Source: a virus
Reading direction: 5' to 3' (one strand)
Virus record (IMG/VR): IMGVR_UViG_3300025141_000518
Span: 1-29,555 of that record
DNA: 29,555 bases
Within the stretch, counting starts at the first letter, position 1. Every line of letters starts with the position of its first letter. A program made the translations under genes and the position numbers. This document shows, piece by piece, positions 11,094 through 20,662 of this stretch. The notes below the pieces were generated by a model, which ran no database searches, was not told where the DNA came from, and saw only the letters and a list, made by a program, of their open reading frames with translations.

Positions 11094-12068
11094 TTAATTT
11101 ACACTTTCTTGGGCTTGCATATAAGCCAATCTTTCGGCAATCTTCTCCTCTCTTGTTTTCTCTCTCTTGTTCTTCATACCCTTTATTCTATCTGCAAGAT
11201 TTTTAGGATTGTAGATAGTAAGTCCTGTTGAGTTTGTTCTGATTATTTCTGCCTCGTCAATATTTAAACCAAGTTCAGTTGCAAGTTCTAATGCCTCATC
11301 AAGATATTTATAACCTTTTAGACCGACTTTAATTTCTTTCATCTGTTCTAAAATAGAGTTAATCCATTTTTGATGTGCAATTACAAATTGACCTTTGGCT
11401 TGTTTCCATTGTATCAACATCATGTATTCTTGTTCATTACAAGCAATAGACCTATCACGACAATAATCTCTACCAATTAAATCAAGTTGATATTTTTCAT
11501 TCCACTCCTTGCCATAACCTTTGTCATCATTACCAAGATACTTGTCGTTGTTATCACAATATTTTGTTTTGTGTGGGTTGCTATCTTTGCCCTCTTGTTC
11601 AATCAAAATATCTGGGTTGCAGTTTTCTTGTGCTTTAAGTTCATCACGAAATAAAGCATAACCATAAGCACTATCTCTTGAAGATGAATAATTATTGTCA
11701 GTATCAATACTACCATTTAATCTAAAATCAAAATGGCTTTCAATAGTATCTTCTTTAGTTATTGGATTGTTGTCATAGTCTCTATCTTCTTTTGTTCCAA
11801 GATAATGAAAATGAAAACAACTGTCTTTGGCAATCGTACTTACATTTTCAAATTTATTCTGTAAGTGATATGCCATTTTAACATCTTCTGGTGTATAATG
11901 TTTTCTTACTATACTTTCAGCTAGTTTCCACGCATTGTCGTTTATGTCAATCTGGTCGGCTTTTAGATTGTCATAGTTTTGTTTTTCAATCGTATCCTCT
12001 TGTTCAAGATGTACTCGCATACGATTTGCGATTTTATTTCTGTACTCTTGATTTAGTCTTAGTCGCAT
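11094..12068 (-). CDS. Hypothetical protein starting MRLRLNQEYRNKI (324 aa)
   Basis: I choose ATG 12068-12066, which has AAAGGAG seven bases upstream; the frame extends to 12098 but that start would coincide with the predicted transcription start. The N-terminal 45 residues are a charged helix (MRLRLNQEYRNKIANRMRVH) of the type seen at the start of some phage-encoded putative nucleotide-modification-associated proteins (Nmad5-like); this is a weak resemblance only. The central part is Asp/Asn/Tyr-rich and the C-terminal third (from about residue 215) is helical and Lys/Glu-rich. It is the first gene leftward of a divergent promoter pair. The function is unknown. Confidence 0.75.
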   Translation of the reverse strand: MRLRLNQEYRNKIANRMRVHLEQEDTIEKQNYDNLKADQIDINDNAWKLAESIVRKHYTPEDVKMAYHLQNKFENVSTIAKDSCFHFHYLGTKEDRDYDNNPITKEDTIESHFDFRLNGSIDTDNNYSSSRDSAYGYALFRDELKAQENCNPDILIEQEGKDSNPHKTKYCDNNDKYLGNDDKGYGKEWNEKYQLDLIGRDYCRDRSIACNEQEYMMLIQWKQAKGQFVIAHQKWINSILEQMKEIKVGLKGYKYLDEALELATELGLNIDEAEIIRTNSTGLTIYNPKNLADRIKGMKNKREKTREEKIAERLAYMQAQESVN

Positions 12069-12104
12069 TTTATTCTCCTTTTTATTATTTGTTTGCATGA
12101 TTTG

Positions 12105-12143
12105 AAATTATCACTTGACAATAGGATAGTCAAGCATTATATT
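12105..12143. promoter_or_regulatory. Divergent promoter pair with overlapping palindrome
   Basis: Rightward: TTGACA (12115-12120), 17 bases, TATATT (12138-12143). Leftward: TTGACT (12133-12128), 17 bases, TAATTT (12110-12105), leading to the 324-aa gene. The two -35 boxes lie within an inverted repeat CTTGAC...GTCAAG (12114-12119/12129-12134) whose centre contains ATAGGATA (12121-12128). The rightward promoter is near-consensus and fires into the GC-richer non-coding stretch. The same ATAGGATAGT decamer recurs in the divergent promoter at 14.88 kb, suggesting a shared regulator; both assignments are sequence matches only. Confidence 0.6.
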
Positions 12144-12200
12144 TGATTTATGACTATTAACCCTCTGACAGAATCTCGAATTCATCAAAGGTCTAGTCAT

Positions 12201-12665
12201 GAGATCAGGGGTGTTGAATATCCTAGTTGCAAATAGGGTATTGTAAGAACTCACGATATGGGAATTAACCTCCACGCGTGAACTGATCCCTGATCCTCTG
12301 GCGAGGCGTTATTGAAAAATAATTAGCCACCACTCTAGAGCAGGGGATCTGGGATCAGGTTGAAATAATATTGGCCTCTGCCCTGAAGACCGGGCGGGCC
12401 TGATCCCTGATCCATTGTGCATTGGCAGATAGCTATGGAACTGCCTAATCGTAGTAATGTCGCAATGGATCTGGGATCAGGTGTTGTAGCTGTGGGAATT
12501 GACCCACTATAGTTCAGGTCGCGATCCATATCTGGATGGTCCGGTATTTCTGCAGAGAGAAAGACCCGCCTGCACAGGACAACAACTGATCCCTGGTCTA
12601 AGTCAGAGGAGATTGATCATCTTGTAATGGGACGTGGCGTCCGCTGTACTTGGACCTGGGATCAG
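12201..12665. repeat. Array of alternating inverted GATC heptamer dyads
   Basis: Seven related sites alternate in orientation: GATCAGGGG (12203), CTGATCCCTGATCC (12283-12296), GGATCTGGGATCAGG (12345-12359), CTGATCCCTGATCC (12400-12413), GGATCTGGGATCAGG (12467-12481), CTGATCCCTGGTC (12586-12598) and CCTGGGATCAG (12655-12665). Most sites are themselves two 7-bp units. Adjacent sites can pair in more than one register, so the region could switch between alternative hairpins. The spacing between sites is 40-105 bases and the intervening sequences differ. Confidence 0.75.
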
Positions 12666-12704
12666 TAACAGAATCCCGGCCATCACTAGTGGGCAGTTAC
12701 TGGT

Positions 12705-12727
12705 CACTTTAGAATGATTCTAAAGTG
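12705..12727. repeat. Perfect inverted repeat at end of the non-coding stretch
   Basis: CACTTTAGAAT (12705-12715) and ATTCTAAAGTG (12717-12727) flank a single G, giving an approximately 10-bp stem with a 3-base loop. On the plus strand it is followed by an A-rich tract (CAAAAAGAAAAAG), not a U-run, so it is not a classical terminator for rightward transcripts. It separates the GATC region from the first AAGCNNC array and may stabilise an RNA 3' end. Confidence 0.5.
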
Positions 12728-12741
12728 CAAAAAGAAAAAGA

Positions 12742-12776
12742 AAGCAACAAGCTTCAAGCGTCAAGCAACAAGCTTG
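12742..12776 (+). repeat. AAGCNNC heptamer array R1 (5 units)
   Basis: Five consecutive 7-bp units: AAGCAAC, AAGCTTC, AAGCGTC, AAGCAAC, AAGCTTG. The first four bases are fixed while positions 5-6 vary. The final unit runs into GACA so that its TTG provides the first half of the TTGACA -35 box at 12774-12779. Related arrays lie at 13383-13440, 14117-14151 and 14194-14269. Confidence 0.85.
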
Positions 12777-12802
12777 ACAGTGACTGTAGGATTTGATAGG
12801 AT
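12774..12802 (+). promoter_or_regulatory. Putative promoter TTGACA-N17-TAGGAT
   Basis: TTGACA (12774-12779), a 17-base spacer and TAGGAT (12797-12802) precede the 32-aa gene at 12822 by about 20 bases. An AAAGGA ribosome-binding site (12811-12816) lies between. The -35 box is created by the last unit of the AAGCNNC array. It probably drives the short plus-strand operon 12822-13470. Confidence 0.5.
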
Positions 12803-12821
12803 TTATTTAGAAAGGAATAAT

Positions 12822-12920
12822 ATGGACACAACACAATTAAAAAGAATAGCAGATGCGCTGGAAGAGATCTTGCGTCTTGTTAAACAAGATATGGAAAAGT
12901 ATGAAAAAAAGAAACACTAA
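12822..12920 (+). CDS. Small helical protein (32 aa)
   Basis: The frame MDTTQLKRIADALEEILRLV... starts at ATG 12822 after AAAGGA; the in-frame extension upstream runs through the repeat array and is unlikely to be translated. The whole product is a single predicted amphipathic helix with regularly spaced Ile, Leu and Val and a Lys-rich end. It overlaps the next gene by 20 bases. At 32 residues it is short, but the promoter, ribosome-binding site and coupled downstream gene support it. The function is unknown; a helix of this kind could be a small regulator or an oligomerising peptide. Confidence 0.5.
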   Translation: MDTTQLKRIADALEEILRLVKQDMEKYEKKKH

Positions 12921-13288: not shown

Positions 13289-13470
13289 AAAGAATTAAAC
13301 ACAATAACCTGTTGCCATGGTTTGCTCAGGATCATGGCACGCTTCCGGCCAGTTACCTGGCCAGCTGTGAAAAGTTTTTTAAAAGCCTGAAGCCACAAGC
13401 TTCAAGCGCCAAGCTTGACAAGCTACAAGCCTCAAGCTATAGTAGGATTATAAAGGAGAATAAAAAATGA
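13285..13470 (+). CDS. Possible small protein ending in the AAGCNNC repeat (61 aa)
   Basis: The frame opens with GTG at 13285, overlapping the previous stop by four bases. The first half (MKRIKHNNLLPWFAQDHG) has some protein-like character, but residues about 33-53 (SLKPQASSAKLDKLQASSYS) are a direct translation of heptamer array R2, and the frame then runs through the downstream promoter. A 6-bp hairpin (GGCCAG/CTGGCC, 13347-13362) is also inside it. Either a short gene has had its 3' end replaced by repeats, or only the N-terminal part is meaningful, or it is not translated. Treat it as doubtful. Confidence 0.3.
   Translation: MKRIKHNNLLPWFAQDHGTLPASYLASCEKFFKSLKPQASSAKLDKLQASSYSRIIKENKK
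13383..13440 (+). repeat. AAGCNNC heptamer array R2 (8 units)
   Basis: Units: AAGCCTG, AAGCCAC, AAGCTTC, AAGCGCC, AAGCTTG, then a 2-base insert (AC), then AAGCTAC, AAGCCTC, AAGCTAT. As in R1, the AAGCTTG unit followed by ACA creates TTGACA (13415-13420). Here the three later units form the promoter spacer and the last one supplies part of the -10 (TATAGT, 13438-13443). Confidence 0.85.
13415..13443 (+). promoter_or_regulatory. Promoter for the Gp88-family gene, built from repeats
   Basis: TTGACA (13415-13420), 17 bases, TATAGT (13438-13443), then AAGGAG (13453-13458) and ATG at 13467. Both boxes are close to the sigma-70 consensus. The whole promoter is composed of AAGCNNC units, so the repeat array doubles as regulatory sequence. 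TAGGAT-like sequence follows at 13443-13448. Confidence 0.65.
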
Positions 13471-14066
13471 ATACAAAAGAAGCATGGAAACTGGTTGGCG
13501 GGCTGTCGAAGCCTGGCAAGATGCCCGGATGGTCAATTGGTATACCTGCAAAAGAATGCAAGACAGGCGTCAAGCTGCAGAAGGTCCCCGGATCTGTCTG
13601 TTATGACTGTTACGCCATGAAAGGCTGTTATGTCTTCAAGGTAGTACAAGACGCTCAATACAGGAGACTTAAAGCAATATACACAGCTCCATGGGTCAAG
13701 GCTATGGTTCACCTGATCAACAGCAAGAAGCCGGACGTGTTCAGGTGGCACGACTCAGGAGATGTACAGGATCTTGAACATTTAAATAAAATATACGACG
13801 TCTGCAGGTTAACACCGGGCAAGCGTCACTGGATGCCAACGCGTGAAGCGTGGATCAAGGACCATCTCGATAGGGCACCTGCTAACCTGGTGATCAGGTT
13901 CTCTGCTCCGATGGTGGACCACGAAGCACCTGCCAGCTGGCCAAACACCAGCACCGTGGTGACAGCTCAGGCTACGTGCCCGGCGCCTCATCAAGGCAAT
14001 CAATGCAAAGATTGTAGAAATTGCTGGAATAAAGAAATAAAGAATATATCATACGGCCAGCACTAA
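13467..14066 (+). CDS. Gp88-family (GP88 domain) phage protein
   Basis: The 199-aa product matches the pattern of the phage Gp88 family, whose biochemical role is unknown. Visible hallmarks: an N-terminal LVGGLSKPGKMPGWSIGIPA; a first Cys cluster VCYDCYAMKGCY (C45, C48, C54); RWHDSGDVQ (93-101), WMPTREAWI, and VIRFSAPMV; and a second cluster CPAPHQGNQCKDCRNCW (C171, C180, C183, C186). The two Cys groups could bind a metal or cluster. The start has a good AAGGAG and an upstream repeat-derived promoter. It is the last gene of the plus-strand island, followed by a GC hairpin. Length is typical of the family and nothing seems missing. Confidence 0.8.
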   Translation: MNTKEAWKLVGGLSKPGKMPGWSIGIPAKECKTGVKLQKVPGSVCYDCYAMKGCYVFKVVQDAQYRRLKAIYTAPWVKAMVHLINSKKPDVFRWHDSGDVQDLEHLNKIYDVCRLTPGKRHWMPTREAWIKDHLDRAPANLVIRFSAPMVDHEAPASWPNTSTVVTAQATCPAPHQGNQCKDCRNCWNKEIKNISYGQH

Positions 14067-14116: not shown

Positions 14117-14269
14117 AAGCTTCAAGCTGCAAGCCTCAAGCGTCAAGCATCACCAAGCCAGAATGAGAAGCGATCATCAACACCAAGTTTAGAAAGCTCC
14201 AAGCCACAAGCTTCAAGCTCCAAGCAACAAGCATCAAGCTGAGGCCTCAAGCCACAAGCCACAAGCTCA
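14117..14269 (+). repeat. AAGCNNC heptamer arrays R3a and R3b
   Basis: R3a (14117-14151) has five exact units: AAGCTTC, AAGCTGC, AAGCCTC, AAGCGTC, AAGCATC, with an offset sixth at 14155. R3b has seven units from 14194 to 14242, a 6-base interruption and three more to 14269. R3b and the end of R3a lie inside the nuclease frame on the minus strand. Immediately after R3b is CTTGATCC-AG-GGATCAAG (14276-14293), which links this array with the GATC repeat family. Confidence 0.85.
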
Positions 14270-14906: not shown

Positions 14907-15548
14907 ATGGGAGTTCCAAAAAGATTAACAGAAATGCAACAAAGATTCGCTGAGTTTTTAGTATTCGGTGGACCTGAGGGACCAATGTCTAAACGTGAAG
15001 CTGCTGTCGCAGCAGGTTATTCACCTGACCGTGCAATGCGGGAAGGATCAGAACTAACCAACCCAAGATATTCACCATTAGTAGTAAAATATATTGGTGA
15101 GTTAAAAGAAGAAAGACTTAGAAAACATGAAGTCACATACGAAGGACATGTTGCAGAACTCGCTAGGTTGAGAGAAGCCGCTTTAAAGAAAGGAAGTTTT
15201 TCCAGCGCTGTAAATGCTGAAGCCAGTAGGGGAAAAGCAGCAGGATTGTATATAGATAGAAAAATAATAAAAACAGGTAAATTAGATGATATGACAGAAG
15301 AACAACTAGAAGCAAAAATGAAACAAATTTTAGACGACTACGCACCTCTTTTAAATGCAAAGACTGTTGAAGGTGAGGCAATCGAGACAACTACTCTTCC
15401 TGTAAACTCAAAAGAATCAACATCAATACAAGACAAAGAATCATCTAAATCTTCTGAATCTTCCTTACCCATTGACGAGGTATCATCGTCCGATCCCCAA
15501 AAGAAAAAGTCCCATCATCTTCCCGATCAAAAGAAGCAAAAAGTTTAA
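14907..15548 (+). CDS. terS: Small terminase subunit-like protein
   Basis: The N-terminal 90 residues have the pattern of small terminase proteins, which recognise packaging sites: RLTEMQQRFAEFLVFGGPEG, a helix-turn-helix-like stretch SKREAAVAAGYSPDRAMREGSE, then LTNPRYSPLVVKYIGEL. A charged helical region (about 75-150) follows, for oligomerisation. From about residue 160 the tail is Ser/Glu/Lys-rich and probably disordered. The last 104 bases overlap the 96-aa gene on the other strand. It is transcribed opposite to and 5 kb from terL, which is unusual but known in phages. The ATG has no ribosome-binding site and lies six bases from a -10-like box. An unrelated HTH protein remains possible. 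Confidence 0.7.
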   Translation: MGVPKRLTEMQQRFAEFLVFGGPEGPMSKREAAVAAGYSPDRAMREGSELTNPRYSPLVVKYIGELKEERLRKHEVTYEGHVAELARLREAALKKGSFSSAVNAEASRGKAAGLYIDRKIIKTGKLDDMTEEQLEAKMKQILDDYAPLLNAKTVEGEAIETTTLPVNSKESTSIQDKESSKSSESSLPIDEVSSSDPQKKKSHHLPDQKKQKV

Positions 15549-17566: not shown

Positions 17567-18353
17567 TTTTCATCTCCTTAAGTAATTGGTTTAAATCCCC
17601 TTGTGTCATTTTAACTTGTTCTTTCTCATCAAACTGTAATTCATGATACATATCTAATCGCTTTAGAAACTTATGTTTCCAAGACCTTAAATCAGCGTCT
17701 TGAAACTTGAATTCTTGGTAATATAGGTCAGGGGTACAGACCATAATGATTCCTTGTTTTATTTCTGATTGATAAACGTGGTCATGTGCCATACAATACG
17801 CGGCAATTTGTAAAAAATAATCCTCAATCCACTCAATTCTTTTAGGGCGATTCGCTTGCTTAAAATCTACAATGGTATCCATCCCATTGTGGAGGCATAC
17901 GAGGTCAGTAGACCCAGCGTATAACCCAGGGTAATATAGTGTAACTTCCGAGCCATAATATTCTTCAACAGGGAGTAACCCTTCTTCAATAATTTTTTGG
18001 GCCATGGCTTTCGCCTCCTGTCCGAGCCCTGTAAGATCATCGTAGCCAGTTCCGAGTATATGATGTTCCAGGAATTTGTGCATGGCAGTCCCCCGCTTGC
18101 TAGATAAATTTTTGATTCGCTCTGCTTCTGTTTCTCCAACTTTGGCCTTCCAGTCTTTTAAAAATTGTTGATTTTTGGTCTTGCCTAATATCGTAGTTAC
18201 ACTTGGAAGTCTAGAACCATTTATATCATAGGTCCTTGATCCTTGGTCCGTGATTTGTGTACCAGTAATATATTTAAATTTATCAGATTTTTTTAATCTT
18301 TGAGGCATACCAGTATTTTTCCAGTGTTCTCGTAAGTCGTTTTCATCCATCAT
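17550..18353 (-). CDS. PD-(D/E)XK exonuclease (RecB/Cas4-like)
   Basis: The 267-aa protein shows the phage RecB-type exonuclease pattern: PSVTTILG (50-57), KRGTAMHKFLEHH (H92), YAGSTDLVC (D150), TIVDFKQA (D163, K165) and the helix QIAAYCMAH (Q182). Such enzymes degrade or process DNA ends for recombination, replication or host-DNA recycling. The start is in a TAATG overlap with the 54-aa gene. Part of the N-terminus (TDQGSRTYD) is encoded by GRTCCNT heptamers (18231-18251). It lies between the two oxygenase paralogs. A host-takeover nuclease role is an alternative. Confidence 0.8.
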   Translation of the reverse strand: MMDENDLREHWKNTGMPQRLKKSDKFKYITGTQITDQGSRTYDINGSRLPSVTTILGKTKNQQFLKDWKAKVGETEAERIKNLSSKRGTAMHKFLEHHILGTGYDDLTGLGQEAKAMAQKIIEEGLLPVEEYYGSEVTLYYPGLYAGSTDLVCLHNGMDTIVDFKQANRPKRIEWIEDYFLQIAAYCMAHDHVYQSEIKQGIIMVCTPDLYYQEFKFQDADLRSWKHKFLKRLDMYHELQFDEKEQVKMTQGDLNQLLKEMKNERNT

Positions 18354-20501: not shown

Positions 20502-20515
20502 AATTCATACAACCC

Positions 20516-20662
20516 CTACAGTTTCCGTGCACGTACTCCTGCAGGAGCAAAGGCTCCGAGGCTACTGGCATGGGACGAACCCTTAGCCAGATTATCGCTT
20601 GACGTACAGGGAATAGCGCGAGGCATTATTTGGACGCCGGTCCTTTTCAATTTTATCTGCAT
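20516..20662 (-). CDS. Small basic protein in a GC-richer stretch (48 aa)
   Basis: The frame from ATG 20662-20660 (MQIKLKRTGVQIMPRAIPCT) to TAG 20518-20516 gives 48 residues, ending ASSLGAFAPAGVRARKL. It overlaps the preceding gene's stop by ten bases. The coding stretch is GC-richer than its surroundings, with a CTCCTGCAGGAG palindrome (20536-20547) and a GGAGC/GCTCC stem (20544-20557). The Ala/Ser/Gly-rich basic C-terminus looks ordered enough for a peptide, but the composition could also reflect a structured non-coding element. I favour a coding reading because of the coupling. Confidence 0.45.
   Translation of the reverse strand: MQIKLKRTGVQIMPRAIPCTSSDNLAKGSSHASSLGAFAPAGVRARKL

Follow-up and report, generated by a model that had tools for sequence, protein, structure and literature searches.

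A modular array of clasped hairpins in marine phages, very probably a structured noncoding RNA

The array and its genomic setting

The window analysed here is a virus record of 29,555 bases, and, by DNA in the array region, Pelagibacter phage HTVC027P is its nearest relative in culture. No convincing gene is found in the stretch of about 600 bases between a divergent gene and a series of small + strand genes ending in GP88 (Table 1). The first-pass annotation had described positions 12115-12727 as a near-consensus promoter pointing into a GC-richer non-coding stretch. This description is confirmed, with TTGACA at 12115, a 17-nt spacer and TATATT ending at 12143, and with a GC content of 46% in the array region versus 35% in the window. 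The + strand frames of the array region are short (42 codons at most), and conservation tracks the stems. A 28-codon ATG frame is indeed present (12150-12236), but it had been presented as the sole in-frame start, and GTG/TTG frames reach 42 codons.

The array region contains 13 GATC sites, compared with a mean of 4.5 in dinucleotide shuffles, none of 500 reaching 13; the density over the whole window is 4.2 per kb. Seven alternating GATC dyads had been noticed. They correspond to the arms of three homologous hairpins together with additional partner elements at 12203-12208 and 12700-12705. The reported count of four perfect 8-bp palindromes has to be corrected to six, which is marginally above chance (shuffle mean 2.4; 4% of the shuffles reach six). 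The predicted RNA fold of 12150-12733 has an energy of -222 kcal/mol (z = -6.5), and none of the dinucleotide shuffles is as stable.

Table 1. Features of the array region and its neighbours, with positions in the window
Feature	Positions	Strand	Basis or remark
Divergent neighbour gene	11094-12098	-	No known family in family searches
21-bp dyad CTTGACAAT-AGG-ATAGTCAAG	12114-12134	+	Candidate operator; overlaps the -35 box
Sigma-70 promoter TTGACA-N17-TATATT	12115-12143	+	11 of 12 consensus positions; conserved; predicted start ~12150
5' leader	12150-12212	+	Inspection and fold; possible pseudoknot; ends in GATCAGGGG (12203-12211)
Leader module E (GTTGAATATCC...AACCTCCACGCGTGAA)	12213-12282	+	4 loci; other slots also used (L106, L219, L251)
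Hairpin H1, canonical arms	12283-12358	+	Hairpin alignment
Linker module B (GGCCTCTGCCC...GGGCGGGCC hairpin)	12359-12399	+	9 loci, at differing positions
Hairpin H2, canonical arms	12400-12480	+	Hairpin alignment
Linker module A, nested three-way junctions P1[P2,P3[P4,P5]]	12481-12585	+	40-sequence alignment
Hairpin H3	12586-12665	+	Interior shared at 96% identity with the first hairpin of L157 and L249
Terminal module, AGUAAC/GUUACU-closed	12666-12705	+	Ends in CTGGTC (12700-12705); CTGRTC conservation
CACTTTAGAATGATTCTAAAGTG dyad (TTTAGAA-N3-TTCTAAA)	12705-12727	.	Candidate operator
Second promoter TTGACA-N17-TAGGAT, downstream small genes	12774-12802	+	Preceded by (CAAGCNN)n repeats
GP88 gene (PF17338)	13467-14066	+	Constant downstream neighbour of the array

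The two neighbour genes are recurrent companions of the array. Among 105 loci seeded by the hairpins, GP88 lies downstream on the same strand in 91 and the divergent gene upstream in 64, with neither of them in 6; array and GP88 are 58 to 1660 nt apart. Conversely, hairpins are found in 51 of 53 loci seeded by GP88, but these loci are close relatives of the window, so that the two linkage counts are not fully independent of ancestry. The structure models of GP88 (pLDDT 94) and of the divergent neighbour (pLDDT 83) are confident; neither has a significant fold match, and they therefore yield no mechanism. GP88 and its relatives share invariant Cys, His and Trp residues (C31, C45, C48, C171, C180, C183, C186, H199 and the FRWHD motif), and the cysteines look, from their pattern, like a metal or Fe-S site. 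In HTVC027P, the two genes directly after the array are gp33, which is GP88, and gp34. Infection RNA-seq of this phage placed gp33 and gp34 in an additional temporal cluster whose expression is high at 6-9 h, which corresponds to early-to-middle expression (PMC12753301). The libraries are directional and public (PRJNA1253180), and the published counts cover annotated genes only (PMC12753301).

Hairpin clasps, covariation and module exchange

Relatives were gathered through the two flanking proteins and, independently of any protein, through the hairpin arms alone, near-duplicates being removed. The hairpins, whose arms are nearly self-complementary, were counted by the T.T position, which is present on one strand only. 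The element was found in at least 206 non-redundant marine viral loci, with 346 hairpins and 1 to 4 hairpins per array. Among 84,980 bacterial and archaeal genomes, the arm pattern matches one contig only, a phage-like one (L279, KB911123.1) in a Flavobacterium single-cell assembly. This contig carries the array, GP88 and RF02976 (the Rfam family Flavobacterium-1), in a stretch that resembles HTVC027P (62% covered, 78% identical). It therefore probably comes from a pelagiphage, in which case Flavobacterium-1 may be a misleading name for the family. As for cultured or complete phages, the full array occurs in HTVC027P, at 17,744-18,203 on the minus strand of MN698241.1, and a single hairpin precedes GP88 in 023Pt_psg01. 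The latter belongs to a minority group (also including L178 and L201) in which a small gene, not the promoter, precedes the hairpin. HTVC033P has both neighbour genes and lacks the canonical hairpin; several inverted repeats are seen in its gene gap beside the divergent gene (L280 1520-1690), which may hold a diverged counterpart of the array. A literature search retrieved no report of this RNA. A 2023 survey reportedly lists over ten thousand candidate structured RNAs from viruses and phages, and pieces of the array RNA may be among them.

Each H hairpin is built from two conserved arms, CUGAUCCC-U-GRUCC on the 5' side and GGAYC-U-GGGAUCAG on the 3' side. Eight near-invariant pairs (CUGAUCCC/GGGAUCAG) form the base; directly above them, 324 of the 346 hairpins have a U.U mismatch. 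About nine varying and covarying pairs stack above it. Stem positions 10-17 are 96% paired, as compared with 32-39% when one side is slid and with 63% when the 3' partners are dealt anew among the hairpins (maximum 65% in 500 shuffles), and many of the changes are two-sided. At positions 14-17, G.U pairs (n = 159) far outnumber A.C oppositions (n = 10), which indicates that the + strand folds; wobble pairs reach 25% of the hairpins at position 17. The hairpin interiors point the same way, since the + strand RNA is the more stable in 251 of 341 cases and the - strand in 90 (p = 7e-22). Taken together, the one-sided wobble and the interior stability settle the strand and make RNA far likelier than duplex DNA. 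A search for a generalised U.U/GRUC motif gave a single match outside the arms, and this generalisation was dropped for want of support.

The modules between the hairpins have a structure of their own. In the 40 aligned copies of module A, 91% of the pair cells are standard versus 35-54% after sliding, with compensatory changes in P2, P3, P4 and P5. Linkers sort into recurring families, and 64 different module strings are found among the 172 loci with enough flank. Leader modules vary from phage to phage. In the window, GATCAGGGG (12203-12211) provides an extra partner for the first arm. A possible H-type pseudoknot, pairing TTCAGC/GCTGAA together with GAATATTTAT/ATAAATATTC, can be drawn in the leaders of L055, L213, L223 and L263, with compensatory variants in L140 and L203.

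The earlier suggestion of a large structured phage RNA is thus borne out by homologous phages that carry the region with covarying pairs and compensatory stem changes, and by a strand-specific folding that follows the direction of a conserved, dedicated promoter. We have little doubt that the region corresponds to a structured RNA of the + strand.

A further property of the array is that its parts are exchanged between phages. The 346 heads fall into 235 families. Comparison across arrays gives 176 pairs of hairpin interiors with 80% identity or more, and both flanks are unrelated in 162 of these pairs; the H3 interior, which is shared with L157 and L249 despite differing flanks, illustrates this. 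Local similarities between arrays end inside the arms in 40.5% of cases, versus 14.4% expected by coverage. This concentration of the breaks identifies the arms as joints for the exchange of heads and modules. Judging from the alignments, the near-identity of the arms may be kept either for exchange or because a protein reads them. A CRISPR-like role of the heads as spacers was considered and rejected: when the heads were compared with all loci, 937 matches adjoined arm sequence and 106 did not, and most of the 14 listed among these arm-less matches fall inside arrays. We know of no precedent in an RNA for such an architecture of exchangeable cassettes.

Control elements, 3' end and alternative register

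The -35 box of the array promoter is embedded in a dyad, CTTGACAAT-N3-ATTGTCAAG, whose outer 6+6 bp are perfect in 107-108 of the 108 loci where it is recognised. In 1.48 Mb of loci, 108 of the 111 CTTGAC-N9-GTCAAG sites lie within 800 nt upstream of an array, and the window contains a single dyad of this type. By its sequence and placement, it looks like a dedicated operator. A transcript start near 12150, as expected by the first-pass annotation, fits the promoter.

At the other end, the element at 12705-12727 had been taken for a strong terminal hairpin. The dyad is perfect, but it looks more like a DNA operator, and the absence of a T-run rules it out as an intrinsic terminator. The motif TTTAGAA-N3-TTCTAAA is strongly over-represented, with 64 sites in the 206 loci versus a mean of 0.38 for shuffled-heptamer dyads; 23 of these 64 sites lie within 450 nt after an array. 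The motif is reminiscent of the iron-control element to which Irr binds in alphaproteobacteria. Terminator-like sites are rare within 400 nt downstream of the array (4 of 194 loci), and the array may thus be the leader of a longer mRNA. The pattern of the second promoter (TTGACA-N17-TARGAT) recurs in 91 of the 206 loci. Runs of (CAAGCNN)n are seen in the window at 12749-12779, 13390-13424, 14124-14152 and 14201-14232, several of them just 5' of TTGACA-type promoters, and extend into short reading frames.

A second folding register can also be drawn. Every 5' arm is complementary to every 3' arm, and each 3' arm is also able to pair with the next CTGRTC downstream. In 141 of 198 loci, this short element is present after the last hairpin. 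The bases adjoining the terminal CTGRTC helix extend it to a P1 of at least 5 bp in 47% of cases, versus 7% of controls. In constrained folds, the single-hairpin register is usually the lower in energy, these energies being indicative only (one locus is inconsistent). A switch between the two registers is possible.

Proposed function, rival explanations and comparison with known systems

The explanation that we favour, with reasonable though far from full confidence, is that of a structured RNA that is modular and regulated and that probably serves as a multivalent scaffold or decoy for protein binding. The region would encode an RNA about 550 nt long, restricted to a large set of SAR11-type marine phages. 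The sigma-70 RNA polymerase of the host would start near 12150, and since the -35 box sits in a dyad, transcription would probably be switched by a dimeric regulator; we infer both the transcription of the window array and its repression at the dyad. The transcript is predicted to fold into a string of H hairpins separated by modules that fold on their own, for example module A with its three-way junctions. Each hairpin would combine eight near-invariant pairs, the U.U mismatch, a GRUC core, a covarying upper stem and a variable head. The simplest account of the constant U.U clasp is that of a repeated protein-binding site, a candidate role in which the RNA would serve as a multivalent scaffold, or as a decoy, for an RNA-binding protein of phage or host origin. 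Like the GP88 region, the RNA would be produced during early-to-middle infection. Its near-identical clasps double as homology joints for the swapping of heads and modules. The strength of these proposals is uneven: action in trans is probable, whereas a decoy or scaffold function, for which we infer protein binding, is put forward tentatively.

The same array could instead act in cis, as a very long structured 5' UTR controlling the GP88 operon through attenuation, RNA stability or a sensing switch. The arms can pair with either neighbour, which gives two registers as in an attenuator, and the terminal CTGRTC (141/198 loci) with its extended P1 (47% vs 7%) suits such a device. The same-strand position of GP88 downstream (91/105), the hairpins upstream of GP88 (51/53), the near absence of terminators in between and the shared temporal class of HTVC027P gp33 and gp34 also suit a leader. 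However, separate TTGACA-N17-TARGAT promoters commonly stand between the array and the genes (91 loci), the distance to GP88 varies from 58 to 1660 nt, the number and order of modules vary freely, unlike those of a sensor, and the single-hairpin register is usually the more stable. We consider a cis-acting leader to be possible but somewhat doubtful, and action in trans to be likelier than a pure leader function. Since any 5' arm is complementary to any 3' arm, identical arms might also pair between molecules and build a multimer or cage made of RNA only. Such cages are formed by GOLLD and ROOL (PMC12286853), which resemble the array RNA in size, phage location and multi-junction structure. 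This assembly is unlikely, as a number of hairpins varying from 1 to 4 fits poorly with a fixed cage symmetry, the window has no tRNA genes, and no GOLLD or ROOL match was obtained even at a relaxed threshold.

Two further explanations place the function in DNA. The hairpins could be single-stranded recombination sites, similar to integron attC, folded DNA being recombined by an integrase-type enzyme that shuffles the heads. Two conserved blocks split by a mismatch, a variable head, a strand bias and breakpoints in the arms would all be expected of such sites, and folded single-stranded DNA would even give a weaker form of the wobble and strand bias. But wobble pairs are frequent (25% of the hairpins at position 17), which would be expected of RNA, a conserved promoter reads the folding strand, the inter-hairpin modules have their own covarying structure, and no integrase gene is tied to the array among its conserved neighbours; we hold this explanation to be very improbable. 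The remaining proposal, already raised by the first-pass annotation, is that the region works as duplex DNA, either as a replication origin or as a packaging signal. It does contain inverted repeats and is situated where divergent gene blocks meet, not far from the gene of the small terminase (14907-15548). This branch is left without support, because wobble pairs are tolerated on a single strand (G.U 159, A.C 10); strand-specific wobble and a conserved mismatch are meaningless in duplex DNA, and cassette exchange and variable copy number also speak against it. We give it almost no credence.

A broader proposal, which we advance as a conjecture, is that of a new noncoding RNA evolving as a cassette array. 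Invariant clasps would carry exchangeable heads that phages reassort by recombination, so that every phage would present a particular repertoire of RNA domains to counter factors or defences of the host, perhaps in complex with GP88. Pelagiphages, the phages of SAR11, rank with the most abundant of all viruses on Earth, and to our knowledge hardly anything has been established about the way in which they take over SAR11 cells. If correct, a promoter-driven RNA with exchangeable cassettes in hundreds of pelagiphages would represent an unusual evolutionary route for noncoding RNA, and RF02976 would be a fragment of a larger system. These ideas can be tested now, as the array is carried by a cultured phage, HTVC027P, for which directional reads from infected cells have been released (PRJNA1253180, PMC12753301).

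Rfam covariance models found no RF02976, GOLLD or ROOL match over 12050-12850, relaxed threshold included, and by the tests run the array RNA is not a member of GOLLD, ROOL or Flavobacterium-1. It had been said to resemble no nameable RNA class, which is true of the region itself, but RF02976 is an array module in several relatives. It was the only family retrieved when the arrays were searched at gathering and relaxed thresholds, and it forms the last (3') module in HTVC027P (L006 7311-7431), L279 and L232. Flavobacterium-1 RNA, of about 121 nt, amounts to one module, and the family does not include the H hairpins, module A or the promoter dyad. A stand-alone RF02976 copy is also seen in the window, between small genes (20512-20646, - strand, 60.6 bits).

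Integron attC sites are shuffled and have conserved paired boxes around a mismatch and a variable head. The array shares the paired boxes flanking a mismatch, the variable head and the shuffling, but differs by its RNA-type wobble pairs, its dedicated promoter and the exchange of the heads themselves; no integrase was found among the genes named by family searches or the two conserved neighbours. Sponge RNAs of the CsrB/RsmZ type and repeat RNAs of the ToxI type bind several protein molecules through a repeated small motif in variable copy number. The array RNA likewise repeats a small structural motif in variable copy number, but this motif is the U.U clasp and the heads differ from hairpin to hairpin; no CsrA-type or ToxN-type protein was identified for it.

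The array RNA belongs to a known broad kind, the large noncoding RNAs of phages. GOLLD and ROOL form RNA-only nanocages, and GOLLD rises during phage lysis (PMC12286853). Like the array RNA, they are large structured phage RNAs, and neither has an assigned function. They have a fixed architecture and often lie near tRNA genes, whereas the array RNA is a mosaic of exchangeable units.
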